A stretch of 64,000 nt of DNA from Bryum argenteum (lineage: Eukaryota > Streptophyta > Bryopsida > Bryales > Bryaceae): contig CM073330.1 of the NCBI GenBank assembly GCA_037043015.1, forward strand, positions 5,481,263 to 5,545,262, in the 5' to 3' direction. Positions 7,184 through 54,000 of this stretch are shown one piece after another. Within the stretch, counting starts at the first letter, position 1. Every line of letters begins with the position of its first letter. The notes below the pieces were generated by a model. It did not search any database, was not told the origin of the DNA, and was given only the letters and a program-made list of their open reading frames with translations. A program made the translations under genes and the position numbers.

Positions 7184-10100
7184 TTATTCCTCCCAGTCAT
7201 CATCATCGCTCTCCTCTTGATTCTTCTTAGCAATGTAATCGTGAAGATGCTTAATCTGCAAAAGGAAATTCCCTTCACTTTAAAATCATACACTACTTTC
7301 GCCCATGATGATTTGTAAGCCTGGATGCAAAACATGCAGTTTAACATAAGAATGCACATTGACAAGAAACTCACCGGTAATGTGATGCCAGTACTGATCG
7401 TCGAATACGAAGTCGTACACCAATCAAGCAAACATGTGAGTGTTAATAACTATGCACGTTGCATGTCCTCAATCAAATTACCAGCTTATGTAGTTGAATT
7501 ATATCATTCTCCTGTAAAAAATTGTGACATTTGACAAAAGAAAAGAAAGGAATCCCAAGAGAAGAGTTGATTTGCTTACCTGTTGGATCCGCTTGAAAGG
7601 CTGCCAGCATCTGTATCTTCAATCCCGGGCAATTTTATTGATTTTACCTACACAACGTTCCAAAAAGGTAATCAATAAAAAGACATAAGTGACTTGCCAC
7701 CAAATTGTTGGACGTTTTGACCAGACTAATCTTATACATGACTCATGAGGATCAAGCCCATAAATTGGAAGAGTAGTTACCTGGTCCTTGTCATGAGAAG
7801 CGCCTTGCATTGAGAGCCTTCGCAATTTTAGGGTGTTTGCCATTTCTGAGAGGACGTTTAATGGCTGCCACCATAAGACAAATATCAGCCAGACAATGAA
7901 GTTTGTACTTCTCCAGAAACGGCTGTGTACATAAATGTAATTTGAAATTCTAGCCTCAGTATTCAAGGGTACAGAACAAAAAAGATAATCTTTATTTTAA
8001 AGTGCACCTTTGCAATTTGCTTCCCACTCGAAGGCTGCATTTTATCTCTAGGCGTCTCTGGCTTGTCTCCAACAATCGTCTGCAGAAACCATAAAGGATC
8101 TATGATAGAGAGTCTAGAAACATCACTTAGCAAAATCAATACATCACTGAAATAGTGTAGCAACAGGGTAAGTTGATTCTTGTATGCAAGTTGTAAAGTT
8201 GCGAAAATGGACATAGGTGATGATACTGATGCTACAAACCTTGCGTAGCTGAATGCCGGGATTACGAATAGCTGCCATCAATGCTGCACGACTTGCATCT
8301 TTCACTGTCATTAACCAACAAACGAGTCGTATTCAGTAAACTATGTACCAAGTAGCAAGTCGAAATGCACATTGGTGCCAGTTTACTTCCGATAACTGCA
8401 GTCTTAGTTGTGAAATTAACCCTAAACCTGTTGTCCAACTTCCGAAGCAAGGCCGAAAGAATTCGATAGAAGCAAACAAGAGAGGATCCAAGCATGGGAG
8501 GAAGCAAGGCCGAAAGAATTCGATAGAAGCAAACAAGAGAGGATCCAAGCATGGGAGGAAGCAAACCTATTGGTGACGGGAGGCTGGATGAACCCACAAC
8601 ATCCGATTGCTTACTAGACTCCCCTATATCAGAGCTGGAAACGGTCACGGGTTTTACAGTTTGAGGAGACGGGACTGGTGATCGCACTGGTGGTGGTGGA
8701 GGAGGAGGAGGAGGGGGTGGCGAAGCTTTAGGTCGAGTATCCGGAGTAGGGGAAGACGAAGCGGCAGCTTCTGCATTCTTAACTTTTGTCAAAATCGTTG
8801 GCAGCCGTGTTGAGCTAGGGGGGATCTGAGGTGAAGCTTCCGACTTAGATAGCAGTACTGTTCGAGGATCTGCACAAGAATAAAAATGAAAGCTATAGCA
8901 GTCAACACACGCTCTGAAGATCTCCTATGTTCAGTAAGGAAGACACTCCAACTGTGGCCAACTGCAGAATTGTTTCTATATGCATGTACATAGAGGTAGA
9001 TAAATCCTAGTTTACTTTTTACATCCTAATGCACATGTGAGTATCTCCCAACTAATTGAAAATAACCTCAGTCTCCATCTGTCAAGTTTCACAACGCTCT
9101 TCTAAAAACTTAAATATCTCGTGTAATGAAAGACTGGGGCACTCACCAACTGGAAAATTGAGACTTGGTATCGGCGGCAGAATAGGAGGTTGAGGTATAC
9201 TCAAGTTAGAAGGGCCAGGGGTCACAATATCCTCAAAACGTGTTGAACCTGTGACATCCAAGTAGCAAGATGAAGATTTATTTACTGGCTTCGATAGCCG
9301 GTAACATGGTACTAGTGACACTGACTTCTAAAAGAGAGGGGTGTCCTAAGAATTCGTGAACAACCTAAAACTTGAGAGGATACAATAATAACAAGGATGA
9401 TACATTAATTGGTGGCGGAATGAATGACTCACTGTCTAACGATCTTGTATCGCTCTTGGTTGGGGTACCCTCAGCTGAACTATCACCAAAAGAAACACTT
9501 CTGTAATGTCCCACGGATGGGGCGAAAGGTCTTGAGTGAGATTGTCGTGAAGACCCTGTACACACAGCAAGGTGTCAGATACCCATTGTATGCTCCAACT
9601 GTTTAGTAATGTGTGGCTCTCTAACTTCCCGTTCATAAATAACAAACGAAACTGCAATGAGATAATGAGCGGCACACTCTCTTTGGATACAGCACATAGA
9701 GGAAGATCAAACTCACCGTTCCAACTAATATCAGCAACCATGGGCAGGTTCGGAAGAGAACTAGGCAAACTGAAAGTTGGAACTTCACCAAGCATTGGTC
9801 GAAACCCGAATTCTTGAACCCCTGACGACGACTACAATTACAGACTTATTCAGAACACCTTTCACTTGTGTACATATCAGCTAGAAGAACTTTATAGAAG
9901 AAACAATACCAAAAGCCAAAGGGGAATATGATATTTTCACTACACTGAACATTCCTGGAGCAAAAGAAAACTCACCAATGCATCACCAGCTAGAACACTT
10001 TGAGGTGGGGCAGCCAACGGGGGAGGCTTGTGTTTGGGTTCCTCTTCTCCTACTATAATGTCAGCTCCAGCAAGATTGTCAACTACCCTATACCTGCAAA

Positions 10101-11031
10101 GATATGAAGCCTAAATATGAGTAACTTCCGAAGGTGAGCATCAGAACGTATGAACCCCCTCGTCAGAGTACTTACAGATGATACGGAAGCTCTAAAGAAT
10201 TGAAAAGCATAGCATCGGCAGCAGATTTGGTGCTCTTCGGCATCCTTCCAATTCCTTCCTGCAAATAAATCAAGATGCTTTCAAAGAGATCGTTCGCAAT
10301 AGTAATTCCCATTCGAAGATACACAAAATAAAAGAAGCTAAAACTGAAACGAGGAGGAATGCAGTGGACGTTGCATACAGCGCTTCGTGCTTCTCGAGGC
10401 CAGTACTCGTGATTTGTCTCCGAGAAAAAACGAAAGAGCTCAAGTGTACCTCCTTCTCCATCCTGGCATCAAACGAATCAGATCAGGACTCTAGGTACTA
10501 CTTCAGTCACACCATATCAATATGATTCCCTGTAACTTGGACGGTAGAAATCAGACCTGGTGTTGGCCAGCGTCCACCGACACCGTTGCAATGGGAAACT
10601 TCGATTGTTTGCCACCAAATAAAGGCACAAAATCTGTTTGCTCAGGGGGAACCTCATGATACTTGGCACTGGAGTACAACGTTGTTGCCTCTTTCGTTCC
10701 AGCGAGTGCCGCTATCTGAGCCTGCCACGAGATTGATCCATCATGCATACAACTACAGTGACCTCAAACATTTGATACAGAGATTGGTAAATCATACCTC
10801 TCTTTCAGTAATTCTTGCACTTAGACTGTTCAATTTTGCCTCTTCCAATTTCACCTGTAGCAAACACGAGAACATTCAGTATCCGATCCGGGCAAGGTCC
10901 TGGATTAAAGAAGGAAGACAGTACAGTACCCTGGCGAGGATGGTATTGAACACGACGTCAGCTGCATCGTACAGATCCAATAGAGATTGACAGAGCCCGG
11001 CATTGCCTCTGCTCGATCCACCCTCCGCCAT
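7184..11031 (-). CDS. WASHC1: WASH complex subunit 1-like Arp2/3 activator
   Basis: WASH1 activates Arp2/3 on endosomes to build actin patches for cargo sorting. Fifteen minus-strand exons, all GT-AG: 11031-10930, 10854-10798, 10721-10557, 10258-10176, 10093-9976, 9831-9717, 9555-9433, 9248-9147, 8869-8567, 8304-8240, 8079-8008, 7864-7781, 7647-7580, 7393-7375, 7255-7184; 1548 nt, 515 aa. The N-terminal WAHD part has the WASH block KEATTLYSSAKYHEVP (human: KAIKVFSSAKYPAP). The middle carries FRPMLGEVPTF and LPNLPMVADI, like the PxLP strings of WASH1. A run of 11 prolines near residue 345 precedes a WH2 motif (RAALMAAIRNPGIQLRK), a basic connector-like stretch, and the acidic Arp2/3-binding tail ESDDDDWEE with the key Trp. 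A SCAR/WAVE protein is excluded because the N-terminal SCAR homology domain is absent. Oddities: a 19-nt microexon and a 57-bp duplication at a splice donor. Confidence 0.88.
8444..8557. repeat. Perfect 57-bp tandem duplication at a WASH1 splice donor
   Basis: Two identical 57-bp units (8444-8500, 8501-8557) lie in the intron right behind the donor of exon 9 (exon end 8567), and the start of a third unit (8558 onward) overlaps the donor itself. The unit length is a multiple of three and the minus-strand frame continues from the exon through both units without a stop. Confidence 0.9.
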
Positions 11032-13875: not shown

Positions 13876-16800
13876 ATGAATGGCAGCAGTATGAATCCGA
13901 AGCCAGTCCCCGCATGGCTGAACAGCGCAGCCTGGGCTTCAACGCCCAGGGCGCATGTGAGGACTACATATTCCTACGGACCTCCTTCTCCTTTAGAGCC
14001 AAGTAGCAGACCAGCACTGGATCATCAGGATGATACTTTAACTGTTACAGATAAGCCATACAAGGAGGTCGTTATACTAAAAGAAGAGATCGATGTTCCC
14101 GTCCCTGCTGCGGAGCCGGAGCCGGAGCCTACACAAGTATATTTTCTGATTGTAAATTCACACATTGAGGATGATTCAGTTCTCCATTTTAACCTAATTT
14201 AAGGATAATTGATCGGTGCAGGTTTCTGATGCCTCGAAACATTCTTCAGATGACGATAACAAGGGTATTAGGAGCCCTTCATCGTTCGACTATCGTGTTT
14301 CCCTTTTCAATACCGAGGTTTGTGCCACAATGGATCGGCTTCTTTAATTTTGTGCCAACAATGGATTGTCTTCTTTAATATTGTGCACTGTAGACGATTC
14401 TTGAATTAGAAGTGTGTGTTTTTGTATCAAAAAACTCAAGCATGTTTTGATGCTTCCAATTGTCAAGGAGAAGAATACACTTAGCAGAGTTGCAACGCTT
14501 GTCATCCCAAGGGATACCTGATGTTGGAGGCATTCGAGCGACTACTTGGAAGGTACTTTTTCTGCTCAATCCCATTCAGCTCCTTAATTTTCATGTACAA
14601 GAGGCTTGTTGTGACAGTATTATTTCTTTAGGTCCTACTTGGATTCCTGCCGAGAAATAGAGATGACTGGGCGACGGAGCTGAAGAAGAAGCGGGCAACG
14701 TATGCTGTGTTCCGAGGGGAGATGATTATCAACCCTATAAGTTTCTTTGGTTCTTATTACCTCTGTCAGTTTAAGATCTTACTATAGGACGAAGATTTTC
14801 CTTATGAACTCATTATTGATTGTAAACTAAGGTAGCATTCCGTCAAAAGCTCGAGTATGGTGAGGTCTTGTTTCTTCTCTTTTCTCCATATACTGGAGCC
14901 ATACTGGATCATGATACTTTTGACTTACGTCCCTTGATCAATCTTACAGGAGAAGCGTGCTGCGTATTTGAGAATCTCATGTGCAATGTTGGTAGGATAG
15001 TTCACTGAACAAGTTCTTTTTTTTCTGGTTGTAGTCAGAGGTCACGAGAAGAAAGGAGCAGATGGAAGCCATGAAGGCAGCAGAGTTGGAAGCATTGGAA
15101 GGTCCTCTTCAGCGGCATGAGATTTCTCAAGACGATCACCCTTTAAGTCTTGGCAGCAAAAGTGTCTGGCATCAATTTTTCCAGGTCTGCATCTTAAGGC
15201 TTTCTTAGCAACGGTAATCCGCTTTGGAGTTGGTTGCTTATCATTCTTGTTGACGATGCAGGATACTGAGTTAGCAGAGCAAATCAACCGTGATGTGAAG
15301 CGGACGCATCCAGACATGCAGTTCTTTTGCGGCGACAATAACTTCGCACAGGAAAATCAAGTACTTGATTCTCCTCTGAACGAGTTTGTCAATCTGCATC
15401 TTGTTACCATGGATAGCTGAAACTTGTCAGTCTTTTTGCTTGCTTTTGCTTACGTCGTCTGCTCATGCCAAACAGGAAGTACTCAAGAGAATATTGTTCA
15501 TTTTTGCAAAATTGAACCCATGGATACGTTATGTGCAAGGGATGAACGAAATCCTAGCTCCGTTGTACTATGTTTTCAAGACCGATATTGATGAGGATAA
15601 TGTGGTGAGAACAATATCTTTACTTGACTGGATGTTAGGAAAGCAGTCTGGCAAGACTAGACGATTTGATGACACTCTTTCTGTTGTTTGTCTGCAGAAT
15701 CATGCAGAGGAAGATTCTTTTTTCTGCTTTGTAGAGCTGCTGAGCGATTTCAGAGATCACTTTTGTCAGCAACTTGACAACAGTGTTGTCGGAATTCGAT
15801 CCACCATTTCTCAGATGACTCAATTACTACGACGGCATGATGAGGAGTTATGGAGGCACTTAGAAATCACCTCAAAGGTATTTTCGCCTCTCTGCATCCT
15901 TTGTTGTTTGTATTGGAGTGGTGTTGTTGGAGGTATTGTTTCTAAATGCCAACTTATCTGGATGCTTCTACACCTTAGTAAGCATGTGCAAATTCTTGGG
16001 AGATTCCTTAGATGATCCTTGATAGAATGGGCATGGTTTCAAGTAGCCTAATGTAGTTCCGATGAATTGTCACGGACATACACAAGAAGTTTCTAGAAGG
16101 TTCTTCTAAAATATTCTCTGAAGATTCCCTCAAAGATTCCTCGAAGATTCCTTGAAGATTCCCTGTGTCACGGCCACGTACTAGGTAGACAACTTAGGAA
16201 GGTTCTAGAAGCTTCCGGAAACTTCTGGAAGTTCCTGGAAGTCTCTGGAAGTTTTTGGAAGGTCCTTAAAGTTTCCGGAAGGCCCTGGAAGCTTCTGGAA
16301 GGTCTTGGAAGTTCTTGGAAGGTCCTAGAAGGTCCTAGGTTGAGGAAGGTTCTGGAGAACCTTCTTCTTAGCTAGTATATATAGAAGTCGAGGCTGAGGG
16401 CAACCTCAGTCTCGACAACGCATCTCTTGGAGCTCTAGCTCATCTCTCTTGTTGTTGTTCGTGTACTCTTCTTGTTAATTCAAGCTCCTGTCAGTTCTTG
16501 TTAGTTTCCACATATTCTTATCATCTGTTTCCCTGACATGAATTCTCTCTACATTTTCATCCTGTGCTATCAAAGTTGCACGAAGAGATGTTCACATTTA
16601 TCAGTACTTAAGAATTTAAGGATTTCTCCTTGGTGTGGATACAACTAATGCTTGGAAACCTGATCTCTTCTTTACGTGCACAGGTGAATCCTCAGTTTTA
16701 CGCCTTCAGGTGGATAACGCTGCTGCTGACACAAGAATTCAACTTTGCTGATTCTCTTCGTCTTTGGGATTCTCTTCTTAGCAATCCCGATGGTCCACTG

Positions 16801-20869: not shown

Positions 20870-23279
20870 ATGGGGTTCAAGCGTTAGGGGTCGTAGTCGT
20901 TAGCAGAAGCTGTGGGGTACGTTCTCAGGGAACAGGGCAATTGTAGTTTACGTTCTCACTGTTTCGCAAAGGCTTTATCAATCAAAATTGGTTAAAGTTG
21001 CAGCAGCCCTTGTTACATGCGAAGTTACAGAGAACATTTCGTGGATGAGTAGAATTGCTTCGAAGCAGATCATATGGTAGCTCGTTTCTTGCGAAGGGAG
21101 ACGAAAAGATTGGCTGACTAGCATGTGGTTAGGTGATCGATAGGATAAACATAGGGCTTACTTAACTGTAACTTTTTGTTCACAACCAACAACACAAGAA
21201 ATCTGCAGACATTTTGCTATTGTATTACCCAATGTTGTAGGTGGTGGTAACATATTTTTCAGTTGGTACTAACGCTTGGAAATTGTGCCGCCTTTCTTAA
21301 GTGTGCTGTGTTGTGATGTTTCTTCTCTAGTGTAGTTATCACCGAAGCATCGACGTTGTTAATGCAGGAATCTTTCATTTACAGGCAACGAGTAAGGACT
21401 CCTTGGTGCAGGTTCAAATCCTGCCGTTGCTATACAGATGGTCAGCAACCGATAGTACACAAGTCAGAAGTGTTCAGGTGAAAGTCGCTGATACGTAATG
21501 TCCACCCAACTCAAGGACGGATCCGCCTTGCTTCATATATTGAAGTATGAGTGTCCGCGTGATGACGGTGCGTATGGGATATCGGACCTCGACTCTTCCC
21601 AATGTAAAATCTGTTCTTTAAAAAATCGGTCGTCCCTATCCTGCTAATTGTGGAATTTTCTACGTGTTTTCGTATATGAATACGAGTCAGAGTCAGCCTT
21701 TGCTTTACGAAACTTGATAGGCTGTACATTGAGGCTTAGCAAATATCAGATTACCAGAGTTACAGTACTCACCTAACAAGAGTAGGTAGGAGAAGAATCA
21801 GGCCGAAAATCAAGTGATTCTTGAAGCCAATTGCAAATGTCTGCAGTATATTCCTTACTTCAATTTCCGTACTGCAACTGACACTTCGGGTGGCCGATAA
21901 CGCCCGCATTACGTGGTGCTTGTTGAGCGGAGGACACGCATTGCCACGAACCTTCCGGGGGCCAATCGTTGGACGCGTGTTCTTTGTGGTAAGTTCCTGG
22001 AATGCCCCCCGAAGTTGCTGTGGACTCCTTTTTGTGCTCGGCATGGATACCCGGTCTTCACGCAAGATTATTGGATCGAAAATGGCCACAATTCGCTCTG
22101 AAGAAAAGAATTTTTTTTGGCCATATTGAGCTTAAACTAATGTGCAATTCTCTTGGCGTGGAGACCTTGGTAGATTCTTGCATTAGACTTTGAAGAAGTT
22201 GAATCTTCGGAATTTGCCTTCAGAGTCTGTACGCTCAGGCAAAAAGACAAGTGTAACCACAGAAGGGCAGATTCTGCAGACCGAAATTGCGGTTGGCTCA
22301 TGTTCAAGTGACCAGCCGACTTCGTCCTAAATTAGAACTAATCATGGACTACAGTATCTGGTTGCCAACTTGGCCCAGTCGGGTGAATTTACCAATTGCC
22401 AAACTTAGTGAGGAAGAAGCTTCCCCGAACCTCGTTTTTTCGGCCTGTGTGCTGTGTATGCCTCTATGGCTTGGTGCTCTTCGAGCATTTTCTGGGCTGA
22501 AAACGTCCCTGTGGGATTGCGTAGAGTCGGAACTCGACAGGCTGTTTAGCTCGGGCGTTCTTACACTCTGGGGGTAATTTGCTCGCGCCCGACAAGCCGA
22601 AAGGGATTCTCTCGGGAATTTCGCAACTTTTGGGCCGTACTGATCCGTTGATTTAGTACATATATGTGTACATATATATGTCACTGAATGCGGTTCCCGT
22701 GGTCGCAAGTCGGCAACCTCCCAACCACCGTCCTTTGAAGAGTCGCCGTCCTAGCAAAACTTTTCAGCTTCTTGCTCTGATAGTGGTTCTCTGATCTCGG
22801 TGCGTTGGCAGCACCCTTCGTTCCGGCGGTGACAACGTGTGAACGAGCCATAAGTAGTTTAGTCTGCGTTCTAGATCTCACTTGTCGGAGGAACAATAAC
22901 TGGTAATGTTTCAAGGACGCAGGGCGCTGCATTCGACAACGGTCGACCTTGTACTAGCAGGTATTGAAGAGCTTAGGTGTTGTGCTTAGCTAGAACGTCA
23001 ATGAATTTCGAGAGGTACAGCAGGCGGGAGTGCTTACTACTGTAGCAAGTTTGTATGAATGGTGTGTGCACCGTTCAGTCAGGGATTCCCGCATGTTACG
23101 TGATGCTTTTCGTCGGCTTTTTTCCTTGCTGCATGGTCATTTAGAGTTGCAGGGAGGGTCATTTGTGGATGAGTACTCTATGTTTATTCTGCTATGAGAC
23201 TCTAAATGTTCGTTCCTGTGCTTGACAGAGCTAAACCAGTTGCTGCCCTTCTGAAGAGAACCAGCACTGAAAAGCAAAG
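20870..23279 (+). promoter_or_regulatory. Long leader and promoter region of the Ca2+-ATPase gene
   Basis: No other gene is supported in this 2.4-kb stretch. It has balanced base composition unlike the AT-rich intergenic DNA, many short upstream ATG frames, and pyrimidine-rich acceptor-like and GT donor-like sites, so it probably holds promoter plus a leader with one or more introns. The coding ATG at 23280 sits in agcaaagATGGC, a good plant context. A tRNA-like half occurs at 21386-21432. Confidence 0.4.
21386..21432 (+). tRNA. tRNA 3'-half-like relic (not a functional tRNA)
   Basis: A perfect T-arm (gcagg, loop ttcaaat, cctgc) is followed by cgttgct, which pairs over 7 positions (one G-T) with ggcaacg at 21386-21392. 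Between them lies only a hairpin (aagg act cctt) like a long variable arm; D and anticodon arms are missing. It may be a truncated tRNA-Ser/Leu copy or a tRNA-derived repeat fragment. Confidence 0.3.
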
Positions 23280-26200
23280 ATGGCTGATAGAGCCGTCTAT
23301 GCTGACGAAATTTCCTCTGAGAGCGATGCTAGACGCTGCTTTCCTAGGTCGCACGAATCTGGTACAGGCCCATCCACATCTGAAAGCTCGAAAAGATGGC
23401 GAAAAGCGACCCTCGTATTGAACGCTACGAGGAGGTTCCGGAGATTTCCTTTACAACGTAGGGCGAGAACGCGGTTCAGGGTGTGCGCGCACACTATATG
23501 TGCGGTGACGCGGCTCCAGAGAGGCTTGAAGAAGCGTGTGATGCCTGGAGGTGTCGCACCTGAAGGGTATGGAGTGGCTCCAAGTGACCTCGTTCAGTTG
23601 CTGCAAGACCGCGAGTATCCGGATTTGGAGAATCTGGGTGGAGTCGAAGGGCTCGCGAAAAAGCTTCATACAGACTTGGAGTACGGGCTGGATGAAAATG
23701 AGGAGCAGTTTCTGAAGAGGCGAGAAGCTTACGGCTCCAATACGTACCCGAAAAAAGTTACCAAAGGATTCTGGTCATTCGTTTGGGATGCATGCAAAGA
23801 CACGACGTTGAACATTTTGATGGTATGCGCCGTTGTCTCCCTCGCCACAGGAATGTGGACCGAGGGACCGAAGGAGGGCTGGTACGAAGGTACCAGCATT
23901 GGAGTAGCCGTCCTCCTTGTGATTTTTGTCACCGCCATAAGCGACTACAAACAAGGATTGAATTTTCAGAACTTAAACGCCGAGAAGGAGAACATTAAAC
24001 TTGAGGTTCTGCGAGCTGGTCGTCGACAGATGGTCTCTATCTTCGACTTGTTGGTGGGTGACATTGTGCCATTGTCAATTGGAGGCCAAGTACCTGCGGA
24101 TGGTGTATTCGTGGAAGGGCATTCGCTTTCAATAGACGAATCAACCATGACAGGAGAAAGCTTGCCAGTAAAGAAAGACAAGTCAAGACCGTTTCTACTT
24201 TCGGGATGTAAAGTGCAAGATGGTCAAGGTACCATGCTGGTGACCGGAGTGGGGCTAAATACCGAATGGGGGCAAGTGATGGCTTCCATTAGTCACGACA
24301 ATGGAGAACTCACTCCTCTTCAGGTTCGGCTGAATGGTGCAGCGACATTAATCGGTAAATGTGGACTTCTAGTAGCATCTGTTGTGTTAGTTATCTTAAT
24401 TATCCGTTATTTTGCTATCACATTCAAAAATGCCACTGCTAGAGAGCGAAGGGCTGCCGAGGTCATCAAGGAGATGGTTCACATCTTCTCGATTGCTGTG
24501 ACGATCGTGGTGGTCGCTGTGCCCGAGGGATTGCCACTGGCTGTGACGCTCACTCTGGCCTATTCCATGCGGAAGATGATGGCTGACAAGTCCTTAGTTC
24601 GTGTTCTCGCCGCTTGCGAGACCATGGGATCGGCAACTACCATTTGTAGTGACAAGACCGGGACACTCACCACGAACAAGATGACCGTGACTAGAGCTTG
24701 CGTTGGAGGAGAGATGAAATCCGAGGATGCTTTGGGTTCTGAATCTCTGCCTTCCAGCCTGGTTACAACACTTCAGCATTCTATCTGCCTCAACAGCAAT
24801 GGTAAGCACTTCTCATCCGATTAGTATAGTCCCCACAGAGAATGAAACATTCGATTCGAGGATATCTTTCAGCCTCTTTGCTTCTCTGCCTTTACTAAAT
24901 TGCAACATTGCCTCAGGCAACGTTGCTCCACACAAGGATGGTGAAGAGCCAGCAGTGACGGGAAGTCCGACAGAAGCAGCTCTTCTGACCTGGGGTATCA
25001 AGCTAGGCATGAACTTCCGAACAGTTCGTCACGAGAATCAGATTCTCCACGTGGAAACCTTCAACTCGGAGAAGAAACGTGCGGGAGTGATCTGCAAAAC
25101 AAGTTCCGGAGACGTTCAGCTACACTGGAAAGGAGCAGCCGAAATCATTCTAGACTTGTGCACGAACTACATCGACTCACAGGGAAATACTCAACGCATG
25201 ACACCCGAGAAGCGGACCGAGTTCAACAACGTGATTGAGGGCATGGCCGCTCAAGCACTTCGCTGCATCGCCTTCGCATACCGACCATTTAACGAACAGG
25301 AGATTCCTGCAACAGAAGATGCGAAATCGGATTGGCAGGCGCCAGACCAGGAGCTGATCCTCTTGGCCGTTGCTGGTATCAAGGACCCGTGCAGGCCTGG
25401 AGTACGTGAAGCAGTAGAGAAGTGTCAACGAGCTGGAGTGAAGGTTCGCATGGTCACCGGCGACAACATCCACACTGCGAAAGCCATTGCTGCAGAGTGT
25501 GGCATCCTAAAAGAAGGCGGCCTAGTCGTTGAAGGACGTGACTTTCGCACTTGGGACGACGCTAAGCTCAACTCTAGAATGCTTGATGACCTCGTCGTCA
25601 TGGCACGATCATCTCCTCTCGACAAGCTCAAGCTCGTGAAGGCACTCAAAGAACGTCGAGGCGACGTGGTAGCAGTCACCGGTGACGGAACGAACGACGC
25701 CCCAGCTCTGAAAGAAGCCGACATTGGTCTCTCAATGGGAATTGCCGGTACTGAAGTTGCAAAAGAAAGCTCAGACATCATCATCCTGGACGACAACTTT
25801 ACCTCTGTAGTGAAAGTGGTGCGCTGGGGTCGTTCAGTCTACGCCAACATCCAGAAGTTCATACAATTCCAACTTACCGTCAACGTCGTAGCGCTCACCA
25901 TCAACTTCGTAGCAGCTGTCTCTTCGGGGGAGGTCCCCTTGACAGCAGTTCAGCTGTTGTGGGTAAACCTCATTATGGACACCATGGGTGCCCTGGCATT
26001 AGCAACGGAAGCTCCAACAGACGACCTCATGGACAGGACTCCTATTGGGAGGAAGGAGCCTCTCATCACCAACTACATGTGGCGCAACATCTTCGGGCAA
26101 GCGATTTACCAGATCGTAGTCCTGCTCATTTTGACATACAGGGGCATCGAGATTCTCGGCCTCAAGGGAACTCACGACCAACAGGAGCTTAAGCGCAACA

Positions 26201-26655
26201 CGATCATCTTCAATGCCTTTGTGTTCTGTCAGCTTTTCAACGAAGTGAACGCTCGTCGCCCTGAGAAGTTCAACGTGTTCGAAGGCATTCACAGAAACTA
26301 CCTCTTCTTAGCCATCATCGCCATCACCATCTTCTTCCAGGTAATCATTGTTACATTCCTGAATGATTTCGCGGATACCACGATGCTTGAAATTAAGTGG
26401 TGGGGACTCTGTATTGCCATTGGATCCGTTGCTACTCCTTTGATGGTGTTGATCAAGTGCGTCCCTGTGCCCAAGAGACCCATTCTGGAAATCTCTTGCT
26501 TTCCCCGATCCGCCTGTTTGGGGCTTAGGAGGCGGAAGAATGCGGAGGTTGTAGAGAGTGATGATGAGATGGGTACTGAAAAGAGGTCTGTGACGGATCC
26601 TAAGTTGCGACATAGAAATCCTAAAGTTGATGAGATAGAAATTATCCATTCATGA
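23280..26655 (+). CDS. Type IIB autoinhibited Ca2+-ATPase (ACA family)
   Basis: This pump drives Ca2+ out of the cytosol at the expense of ATP and is released from autoinhibition by calmodulin. Two exons, 23280-24801 and 24917-26655 (3261 nt, 1086 aa). The N-terminal cytosolic tail has the plant ACA calmodulin-binding motif SSKRWRKATLVLNATRRFRR around residues 36-55. The actuator loop has TMTGES, transmembrane helix 4 has VPEGLPLAV, the phosphorylation motif is CSDKTGTLTTNKMT (Asp near residue 457), and the hinge is VTGDGTNDAPALKEADIGLS. About ten hydrophobic helices are visible. The C-terminal tail is short and basic-acidic, as in ACAs where regulation is N-terminal. The target membrane (plasma membrane, ER or vacuole) cannot be read from sequence. 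A single coding intron is few for this family. Confidence 0.96.
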
Positions 26656-34425: not shown

Positions 34426-35165
34426 GTAATGACCTCTCCGCCTACCTCCAAGTCATGGCCTCTCGCACGTTACGCTACTACCTTTTCAAACAAGATTTCA
34501 AATTACTTCGCTCTCTATTTTGGAGCCAAAGCTATAAAATAGTTTCAATAATGGTGAGGACAATAAAGACGGTGGCCAATACCTCTTTCAGTCCTACCCC
34601 AATTCAATCACAATCTATAAAGAAAATCCTAAAAATACGATTACCCATTACTACCTTACTCATCCTAAATCCCAACCAATAACATCAATGCCCAATAGTC
34701 CTAATGATTGGGGATGCGGCATGATTACTTATAGGTATCTCTAAAATAAAAATCACACTATGATACTGTAAAGATTGAGTAAGAAAGTGCAAAATAACAA
34801 GGTAAGCAAGATTTTGGGGAACCCAACAATCCATCTATAACTCCATTGAGGCCCACTTTATACACATGCTAGGGCCAGCTGGACAGCGGGCCGAATTCAA
34901 CGGCGAGAGTTCGGGCCCAAGTTGGGGAGTTCACGCCAGGGTAAACCTTGTCCCAATTGCATCACTTGGGCCCGAATATTTTGGCGCCAAAATAGTGCCA
35001 CATAGGATGCCACATGGGATAAGTTGAAATTTGGGTCGGGCCCTAGTATAAAGCCCTTGGGCCCGATTTGAAAGAATCGAGCCATCCTATTAGTTGAAAT
35101 TTGAAGAATTGGGGCCAGCCCTCAATCCGGCCCCAAGTATAATGTAGCCCTACATAGATGATAGT

Positions 35166-35760
35166 TTATTACAAGCTGGATGAGGGTTGGTAACAAGCTG
35201 GATGAGGGTTGGTAACAAGCTGGATGAGGGTTGGTAACAAGCTGGATGAGGGTTGGTAACAAGCTGGATGAGGGTTGATAACAAGCTGGATGAGGGTTGA
35301 TAACAAGCTGGATGAGGGTTGATAACAAGCTGGATGAGGGTTGATAACAAGCTGGATGAGGGTTGATAACAAGCTGGATGAGGGTTGATAACAAGCTGGA
35401 TGAGGGTTGATAACAAGCTGGATGAGAGTTGATAACAAGGTGGATGAGAGTTGATAACAAGGTGGATGAGAGTTGATAACAAGGTGGATGAGAGTTGATA
35501 ACAAGGTGGATGAGAGTTGATAACAAGGTGGATGAGAGTTGATAACAAGGTGGATGAGAGCTTGCAACAAGGTGGATGAGAGCTTGCAACAAGGTGGATG
35601 AGAGCTTGCAACAAGGTGGATGAGAGCTTGCAACAAGGTGGATGAGAGCTTGCAACAAGGTGGATGAGAGCGGATGAAGGTGGATGAGAGCTTGTTACAA
35701 GATGGATGAAGGTGGATGAGAGCTTGTAACAGTATGGATGAACGAGGATGATATATTGTA
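35166..35760. repeat. 22-bp minisatellite, about 24 copies in four homogeneous blocks
   Basis: The unit is of the form gatgagagttgataacaagg. Going left to right the array has about 4 units with ggttggtaacaagctg, about 8 with ggttgataacaagctg, about 7 with gagttgataacaaggtg and about 5 with gagcttgcaacaaggtg, then diverged units to 35760. Within a block the units are identical. Because 22 is not a multiple of 3 the array is open in all three minus-strand frames, which explains three long overlapping frames there; none is a gene. Confidence 0.92.
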
Positions 35761-37849: not shown

Positions 37850-39150
37850 GAATGTTTCTCGGTGCACGTGTACGAGGATGATACTCGATGCACATGTATG
37901 AGGATGTTGCTGGGTGGAAGCATGTTGCTCGGTAGACGTGTACGATGATGTATCTTGGTGGACGTGTACAAGAATGTATCTAGGTGGATGTGTACGAGGA
38001 TGTATCTCGGTGGACGTATACGAGGATGTCGCTCGGTGGGCGTTTATGAGATGTTTACGAGGATGTTGGACATTGGAAATGTATGGGAATGGATGTACAG
38101 AAGAATGTTGGTGACTGGACGTGTATGAGGATCGCTGAGTGGACGTGTAGGCGAGAATATTGCTTAGTGGACATGTAGGAGGGCATGTCGAATGTCGCTC
38201 AGTGAACGTGCATGAGAATGTCGGTGAGTGGATGCGTATGAAGATGTCGCGGAGTGGACGTGTAGGTGAGAATGTTGCTTAGTGGACATGTAGGAGGGCA
38301 TGTCGAATGTCGCTCAGTGAACGTGCATGAGAATGTCGGAGAGTGGATGCGTATGAAGATGTCGCGGAGTGGACGTGTAGGTGAGAATGTCACTGAGTGG
38401 ATGTGTATGAGGATGTTGGTGAGTGGATGCGTATGAAGATGTCGCTGAGCTGAGTGGACGTGTAGGTGAGAATGTCACTGAGTGGATGTGTATGAGGATG
38501 TCAGTGAGTGGACGCGAGGGAGAATGTCGGCGAGTGGACGTATATGAAGATGTCGCTGAGTGGGTCTGTAGGCGATAATGTCATTGAGTAGACATGTAGG
38601 TGAGAATGTCGCTGAGTGGACGTGTAGGCAAGAATGTTGTTGAGTGGACGTGTGGGCGAGAATGTCGGTGAGTAGACGTGTATGAGGATGTTGGTGAGTG
38701 GATGTGTATGAGGATGTCGGTGAGTGGACGTGTATGAGGATGTTGGTGAGTGGATGTGTATGAGGATGTCGGTGAGTGGACGTGTATGAGGATGTTGGTG
38801 AGTGGATGTGTAGGCGAGAATGTCGGTGAGTGGACGTGTAGGCGAGAATGTCGGTGAGTGGATGTGTAGGCGAGAATGTCGCTCACTGAACGTGTAGGAG
38901 AATGTCAGTGATGGACGTGTATGAGAATGTTGCTCAGTGGATGTGTAGGTGAGAATGTCGCCTAGTGGATGTGTACGTGAGAATGTCGCTCTAGTGGATG
39001 TGTACGAGAATGTCGATGAGTGGACGTGTATGAGGATGTTGCTAAGGGGACGTGTATGAGGATGTTGCTAAGGGGACGTGTATGAGGATGTTGCTAAGGG
39101 GACGTGTATGAGGATGTTGCTCAGTAGCCGTGTACGAGGCTGTTGCTCAG
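37850..39150. repeat. 24-bp minisatellite, about 50 diverged copies
   Basis: The unit reads approximately gtgagtggacgtgtatgaggatgtc, with frequent variants (gtaggcgagaatgtc, gcgtatgaagatgtc) and higher-order repeats such as a near-exact pair around 38142-38246 and 38257-38370. Apparent frames such as 38581-38886 translate the repeat and are not genes. Confidence 0.88.
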
Positions 39151-51087: not shown

Positions 51088-54000
51088 ATGGCGGAATTAC
51101 TCGATGAACTTGGGTATCCAAGAGAAGTCACAAAGACCGAAGTAGTTTCTGCATTTCTTCAGGTAAACTGATCCCTGCACTCACATTGAGGCAATAATTG
51201 TATGTATGATTGAAATGTTCTTATGGCATGTTGAGAAACTTTCCTTTTTATACAAATCATGCAGCTTGCATTGGGTATGCACTCATAAATCATTATCATA
51301 TTCCAAAGTTGAAATTCAACAGTAGGCAGTTTATCATCGTGTTGATCTACCGATCGAACTCTGAATATTGTGTTTGTGTACCAATCACATTTGCATAAGT
51401 TCATTGTAAAGTGAAATCTCGAAGTTTCCATGAGAACGAATGTCAGAAAGTAATTTGATTAAATGCATTCATTAATCAAACTCATATCTACCTTTCTCAT
51501 TGAAATTGGTAGTTATGAAACTTTGATAGAGCAAATCAATCGAAGAAGAAAACGGTAAAAATTCTGGCCATTCTCGATTTCAATGAATCAGCCAAGGTAG
51601 ATGTCCACTTGTTTGACTCGAAGCAACAGTAAAGACTCCCTAAAGTGAATCAATCCCTGGAAAACCTAAAGTTGAGGTCAATGGAAAATTCCATCACATA
51701 AAAATGATGTGGGAAACGATGATTACCTGCAGACGATTCAAAGGTCATTGAACTGCCTATCATCAGACGACCAGAAGCAACGAAGAAACGCGCTCGAGAA
51801 ACTGCAAGTGGGTCTGCTGCAAGACGACGGAGCAGGATCATTGCCTCCACTGGACGTCCTGCAGGTCATACTCACCCCAAATTCCTTCTACTTGAAGCAC
51901 GTACACAATTCTTTCATGAATATTCATGTTCTTTCTGGTTTGCAGGCAGCGTGGGATGAAGTAATCCTTGAGAAAGTGCTTCGTTGTGTGAGTGATCCTA
52001 GTGAGAAATGCCGGGAGCTTGCTATCCAACTCATTGCCGAAGTGGCTCGCTCACTCACCGAGGTAATCAGATCATTGATAGATAGTAAAACTCTTCTTTG
52101 CAAATAGTCCCATTTGTCATTTTTGAGTGGTTTTGTTCCTATTCGAGCGAAAATGGAGTTGTTGACCTAATGGGGGCGACTTGACCTAATTTTGAGATTC
52201 TAATTTGATGTATTGAATGCTCATTGGAACATTGTTCTCTCATTGGAACATGTGAGAATTTGAGGTTTATGATTTCATGGTTGTTCCGATTTGATGCAGG
52301 TGGATTTCACATTGAAGGAGGCTGTGCTAGTCATCGAACAGAGGATGGGTAATACTCAACTCCTTCATTGAGAATTTTCTTGTTACGGATTCAATATATT
52401 GTCACAAACATGGTTTTTATGACTACAAACGTTTGTGACTTAAGACTCAAAGAATACGAGAAAAATGGATATAAAGTGCACAGTTCTATGATATTATGTA
52501 GAAATCTCACTACATGGTACTATTTTGACATGTATTCATGATAGATAGAGTGGTTGTTATGTTAAACATTCAGACTACTCACCCTTGCCATAAACCACTT
52601 CATCTATTGCTACATTGTAGGTTGCTTGTTTTTACTCTATGATTCACCATCTCTTGTTTATGTGCCACTATTGATGATAAACCGCAAATTCAATATTCTG
52701 ACAAGCAAAGGTTGCATTGGTGCAGGGCAAGTGCCAATATTAGAAACTTCCGAGGAGATTCGATTGCAGCTCTTCTCGTTGCTGATCGATGTGCTGCTCC
52801 CGGAGTGCGAGCTTCCCACGCTACACGACCTTGTTGATCCTCTCCATCGGGTTTGAACTCTTGACCCATATTGATCAAGGGTATTGCAAACACATTGGTC
52901 GTATTATAATTATATGACAAGTCATTCTAGCTCCGGACAACTCTTCTTTGCAGATAGTAGCTGCGACTTTGTTTGATCAATTCCATGAAGTGCGGAAGAA
53001 AGCTTGCAGTCTTCTGGTGACCATGGCTCAACGGGACCCAGAAGTGTTTGGGAACAAGACGGGAGTCTTTCTGCGAGGCCTCATTCCATGCCTTAGCCAT
53101 GCTCATTCTCGAGTAAGCCTATCGCTTACATGTCATTGTTGCTGTTTTTTCTGCTAATATGCAAGGAGTAGTAATTTGGGGGGTATGTGTTTTGTAAGCT
53201 GCAGGTGAGAATTGCAGTGTTTCAAGCAATTGATGCTATGATGCAGTGTGGCCTTACTAAAGGTTTGGTAGCCCAGCAACTTGCACCCGGAACCAAGTCG
53301 CTCGCCTTTGATCACAACCCTTCCGTTAGAGAAGTCAGTGCTCCTAGCTACTCATGCCAACTTCAATTTGGTTATCTCATGCCAATTTGTCACGTGGAAT
53401 GATTTTTTTTCAAATCTTTTGTCACTACTAGAAAAGAGGGGGCTTTGCAAGGTGTAAACATTTCTCAAGTGTAGCAATGTTTTGGAATTTGCTTCATCAA
53501 CGTTCTCAAGAAAATAAGTAACGGTTTCAACCTCAAATCTACTAATTATGTAGTACGTTGCTTGGTAATTTGATAGTGTTGCTTAATTCCTTGAGGACGT
53601 TGGTGAAGCAAGTTCCAAAATACGTTCTTTCACTTGATCAATATTTGAGAAAAAAACATTGCAAACACCTCCCCCCTCCCCAAATTGTAGTAGTAGTGTG
53701 CACCAGATCTTGTCCTTTAGTTGCTAACTCTTGCCATGAGCCATATATAGTCCAGACTAATGTCCGTTGTTGATGTGTGCTCACTATCTAATACAGAATC
53801 TACCATGTTTCCTTCTCCCTAGCGTGTCGTTTTCACTTTCTACTACACAATTTACCATCTTCCCTTCCTTGTAGTGTGCCATTCATTGCTGCCCATTTTC
53901 TACTCTCAAAACCACCATCTTTTCTTCAAGTTCCGTTATCCATTGCTCAGCACGCTTAGTCCAGAATCTTTCTTTCCTTCCTTCTACTGTGCCATTTTTT

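Follow-up and report, generated by a model that had tools for sequence, protein, structure and literature searches.

A predicted WASH gene and genes for WASH-complex partners in the moss Bryum argenteum

In animals and amoebae, the C-terminal tail of WASH activates the Arp2/3 complex on endosomes. WASH is described as one of the five subunits of the WASH complex, together with FAM21, CCDC53, SWIP and strumpellin (PMC3298513, PMC5450189), and this complex is reported to be present across all eukaryotic supergroups (PMC5450189). Among plants, WASH has been reported in Ostreococcus, Physcomitrella patens and Selaginella moellendorffii, the latter two with a regular acidic domain, while cDNA provides a full-length WASH from Picea glauca and fragments from Pinus taeda and Cycas rumphii; N-terminal WASH fragments in Sorghum, Oryza, Phoenix and Setaria were taken for pseudogenes (Kollmar et al. 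2012, PMC3298513). That early land plants, a moss included, possess WASH is already published and not in itself new: the question of novelty had been left open in an earlier note on this DNA, and the records for Physcomitrella, Selaginella and Picea predate it.

According to a 2013 review, Ostreococcus lucimarinus was the only plant for which the full set of WASH-complex subunits had been reported. An interactor of the WASH complex, the Commander complex, is described as having kept four ancestral subunits in Physcomitrium and appears to have been lost by Arabidopsis (PMC10187114). As regards plant WASH, the passages considered from PMC3709099, PMC8047104 and PMC10607326 go no further than a general mention, and no description of land-plant WASH-complex partners was recognised in the titles and abstract starts of the open-licence papers listed. 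In this work we analyze a WASH gene located in a 64-kb stretch of the Bryum argenteum genome (the window, C10:5481263-5545262), together with candidate partner genes in the same genome.

Gene model and domains of the WASH locus

The gene was rebuilt from the DNA on the minus strand, running from 11031 to 7184 in 15 exons and 14 introns, with exon joins predicted from splice signals and reading frame. The joined exons total 1548 nt and encode 515 aa and a stop, with no internal stops; introns are 75 to 298 nt long, all 14 bounded by GT-AG, and GC content is 48.7% in exons versus 39.4% in introns. As predicted on the DNA, the gene is intact-looking, and the rebuilt model coincides in its ends, exon count and protein length (11031/7184, 15 exons, 515 aa) with the one put forward in the earlier note, which named no strand.

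Exon 1 (10930..11031) carries the start codon at 11031, with an in-frame stop 5′ of the ATG, and opens the N-terminal region with MAEGGSS..., which continues in exon 2 (10798..10854); exon 3 (10557..10721) contains YSSAKY, at residue 69 of the translation. The WAHD domain, as delineated by the PF11945 match with its best stretch at residues 105-228, extends over exon 4 (10176..10258; EGIG...MLFNSLELPYHL), exon 5 (9976..10093; YRVVDNLAGAD) and exon 6 (9717..9831; domain end, LPSSLPNLPMVADISW), and the match finishes in exon 7 (9433..9555), which then enters a linker that includes exon 8 (9147..9248). Exon 9 (8567..8869) encodes a proline-rich region with an 11-proline run, so that a poly-proline region is present between WAHD and VCA, and is followed by exon 10 (8240..8304), with the WH2 motif, exon 11 (8008..8079), and exon 12 (7781..7864), with a connector read by eye, LSEMANTLKLRRLSMQG. 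Exon 13 (7580..7647) precedes a 19-nt micro-exon 14 (7375..7393), placed on the basis of frame and GT-AG fit, and exon 15 (7184..7255) encodes the acidic tail EESDDDDWEE and the stop. A crude pattern scan of the minus strand between 11000 and 14500 showed no upstream exon with the N-terminal WASH motif, and for this reason the 5′ end of the gene could be incomplete.

Two variants of the model were discarded. Adding a 13-nt exon within intron 3 (GATGGAGAAGGAG, lying between possible splice sites identified by eye) breaks the frame, and retention of intron 9, which introduces no stop within the intron, nevertheless shifts the downstream frame. Intron 9 (8305-8566) also harbors a perfect 57-bp tandem duplication (8444-8564, 2.1 copies, 100%) that adjoins the exon-9 donor (GTTTGC); the length of its unit is divisible by three, and no in-frame stop occurs in this intron.

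A Pfam scan of the 515-aa protein matched PF11945 (WASH_WAHD) with 81.8 bits (E 7.8e-23, cut-off 24.2) in two stretches, the better of which aligns with positions 144-264 of the 292-position model; for this predicted protein, the match is beyond chance. The only other model reported at E up to 1 was WH2 (PF02205), on residues 392-412, which scored 17.1 bits (E 0.0044), under its cut-off of 23.1, and in which an LRKT-type motif is visible. We take RAALMAAIRNPGIQLRKT, at residue 395, LSEMANTLKLRRLSMQG, at residue 440, and the C-terminal EESDDDDWEE, whose tryptophan is seen by eye close to the C-terminus, to be the WH2, connector and acidic tail, respectively, based on their likeness to WASP-family motifs and, for WH2 alone, on a Pfam match that is below cut-off. 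The whole WASH1 layout described in the earlier note hence stands for WAHD, SSAKY, the proline run, the connector and the acidic tail, with WH2 scoring below cut-off, and the comparison to a WAHD profile that it had proposed bears out the WASH1-type identity.

WAHD is described as a domain specific to the WASH family (Kollmar et al. 2012, PMC3298513), and since this domain matches, we consider the gene to be of WASH1 type and infer that its product is the plant orthologue of WASH (WASHC1). The notion that it is instead the usual plant SCAR/WAVE activator, taken for WASH through a common WH2-connector-acidic tail, draws on a C-terminal layout that is indeed common to the WASP family, but it is scarcely credible: WAHD, a domain specific to WASH, is recognised in the N-terminal half far above cut-off, no families other than WAHD and WH2 appear in Pfam at E up to 1, and genes for WASH-complex partners are present in the genome.

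Searching the whole genome (258.8 Mb, 25 contigs) with the WASH protein at an E limit of 1 yielded 15 matches, 14 of them inside its own gene. The remaining one (C7, E 0.0129, query 336-431) was dropped as a chance match of the proline run to a proline-rich frame, which adjoins what appears, by eye, to be a receptor-like kinase. No second WASH copy was found among the best candidates scored in this protein search, and a PDB search with WASH returned 6 rows, none named WASH.

WASH-complex partners and Arp2/3 subunits in the same genome

A profile search of the genome located strumpellin at C5:4767645-4770914, where PF10266 scored 1266.3 bits in a match that spans model positions 1-1083 of 1084 and has no stops; the open frame by itself scored 1266.1 bits on the same profile. 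A PDB search with strumpellin returned no rows. SWIP was located on the minus strand of contig C9, with PF14745, PF14744 and PF14746 matched in order along ~8.3 kb. Its pieces cover positions 23-195, 193-236 and 298-366 of WASH-4_N; 1-65, 67-102, 100-146 and 146-201 of WASH-7_mid, plus a 197-bit piece in two stretches, the better at 200-271; and 35-98 and 92-127 of WASH-7_C. These come from 22 distinct scanned pieces, comprising 20 of the 51 frames of at least 45 aa in the region (L007, picked by eye) and 2 from L009. Ten of the 22 matched one of the three profiles, 11 matched no family and one gave a chance match to SoxG (E 0.11), and a good deal of the middle of SWIP is left unaccounted for by the pieces scanned. 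The strumpellin gene (L001 1372-4947, plus strand) is a single uninterrupted frame of ~1190 aa, whereas WASH and SWIP are split into many exons; one explanation for the single frame is a retrocopy having replaced the original gene.

CCDC53 was detected on contig C11 through one exon scoring 32.4 bits (cut-off 24.6) in the exon-wise genome search. Joining three exons by splice sites and frame raises this to 62.0 bits (E 1.1e-16) for 64 aa covering positions 1-49 of the 147-position model, and the stop that ends the exon-wise frame is placed behind a splice site in the joined model. A rough pattern-based search aimed at the C-terminal portion of CCDC53 gave nothing convincing, and a second match (C3, E 4.65) was dropped as chance. 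The Arp2/3 subunit ARPC4 is represented on contig C5 by six colinear matches, each above cut-off (best E 2.2e-10), with a stop in the exon-wise reading of four of these six stretches.

For FAM21, PF15255 (CAP-ZIP_m), the only profile known to us for this subunit, returned 0 matches with the E limit set at 10 in a weak test that applied one short profile to the genome exon by exon. The ARPC2 profile (PF04045) gave none at E 0.001 in a genome search with 5 candidates scored, likewise a weak test. At this same threshold PF11945 returned nothing from the whole genome, missing even the known WASH gene, presumably because short exons fall below the reach of an exon-wise profile search. Because this type of search missed the WASH gene, we do not take the FAM21 and ARPC2 negatives as absence. 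In 14 control genomes there were 0 matches for strumpellin, SWIP, ARPC4, FAM21 and ARPC2, and CCDC53 matched in Synechococcus elongatus only, under cut-off; these controls are uninformative, since they are silent also for strumpellin, SWIP and ARPC4, which matched here.

These results bear on whether WASH might operate outside a FAM21-containing complex, FAM21 having been lost, the other subunits kept and membrane recruitment achieved by another route. The lack of a CAP-ZIP_m match in a genome where comparable searches recovered strumpellin, SWIP and CCDC53 points in this direction, but the FAM21 test is a weak one, made exon by exon with one short profile, and a search of this type overlooked the WASH gene of the window; we regard FAM21 loss as unlikely. 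Were it the case, the moss would possess a working land-plant WASH complex without FAM21, and endosomal branched actin would be targeted unlike in animals and amoebae, an outcome to which we give a small but appreciable chance.

A second alternative is that the WASH gene is a decaying relic, akin to the N-terminal WASH fragments of some monocots. Such fragments are on record for Sorghum, Oryza, Phoenix and Setaria (PMC3298513), and the 57-bp tandem duplication in intron 9 beside the GTTTGC donor could be read in this way. The gene, on the other hand, is full length: its frame is unbroken, its introns have GT-AG sites and its acidic tail is present, and strumpellin, SWIP and CCDC53 genes have also been kept. 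Because the WASH and strumpellin frames are both long and intact, decay is argued against, and we deem it very improbable.

What this analysis adds is the finding of genes predicted to encode three partner subunits and ARPC4 alongside WASH in one genome. The earlier note had suggested a retained WASH pathway and a search for its partners: strumpellin, SWIP and part of CCDC53 were recovered, the weak test for FAM21 yielded no match, and the suggestion gains strength from the strumpellin, SWIP, CCDC53 and ARPC4 genes.

Neighboring loci in the window

The TBC domain of a Rab-GAP (PF00566, 67.3 bits) lies at 15380-16012 on the plus strand, a few kb from WASH. On the same strand, a P-type Ca2+-ATPase (23271-26652) is read in two long overlapping frames (517 and 645 aa) that differ in register and match N-terminal and C-terminal domains; the change of register would stem from an intron close to 24.8 kb or from a broken frame. 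The pump shows a weak match (22.5 bits, under the cut-off of 25) to PF12515, the Ca2+-ATPase N-terminal autoinhibitory domain, which is typical of plants. Window neighbors further include a MAP3K-like kinase and a DNAAF5-like HEAT-repeat piece at 51676-52104 (plus strand), perhaps reaching to 58757, with 33.7 bits on PF25757 (cut-off 27); five later frames scanned at this locus showed no supporting family. By its sequence, the piece is suggestive of a dynein assembly factor that would fit motile sperm. Taken together, the calcium pump, the kinase and this HEAT piece would be in keeping with a non-flowering land plant. Minisatellites occupy 35157-35709 (22-bp unit, 25 copies) and 38190-39138 (26-bp unit, 35 copies), and Rfam and tRNA scans of the window yielded 0 matches each.

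Proposed function and comparison with known systems

That a single genome encodes WASH, strumpellin, SWIP, CCDC53 and ARPC4 makes the WASH-complex mechanism the best reading of the data, and WASH here most likely works within such a complex. In this mechanism, the N-terminal WAHD region would dock WASH into a complex with strumpellin, SWIP and CCDC53, the C-terminal WH2-connector-acidic tail would bind actin and the Arp2/3 complex, and branched actin would then form on endosomal membranes. We infer complex assembly, the endosomal site, Arp2/3 activation and WASH expression from gene content, and consider it very probable that the orthologue acts with these three partners in driving Arp2/3-dependent branched actin on endosomes.

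Arp2/3 genetics in flowering plants, mainly Arabidopsis, is described in a 2013 review as centered on the SCAR/WAVE activator. A plant with WASH and three of its partners would make endosomal Arp2/3 control testable in plants through WASH or strumpellin knockout, and suggests that a complex, rather than a stray WASH gene, persisted in some land plants before the loss or reduction of WASH in flowering plants.

Compared with the WASH complex of animals and Dictyostelium, the moss shares genes for WASH, strumpellin, SWIP and CCDC53, and differs in that a weak test detected no FAM21 and that CCDC53 was recovered over only the first third of its model. With plant SCAR/WAVE the predicted WASH protein has in common the C-terminal WH2-connector-acidic tail for Arp2/3, its WH2 motif scoring below cut-off, whereas its N-terminal domain matches WAHD. 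Close known counterparts are the WASH proteins of Physcomitrella patens, Selaginella moellendorffii and Picea glauca, with which, compared by published description, it shares WAHD, a poly-proline region, VCA, a regular acidic C-terminal domain in the case of the first two, and a land-plant host.
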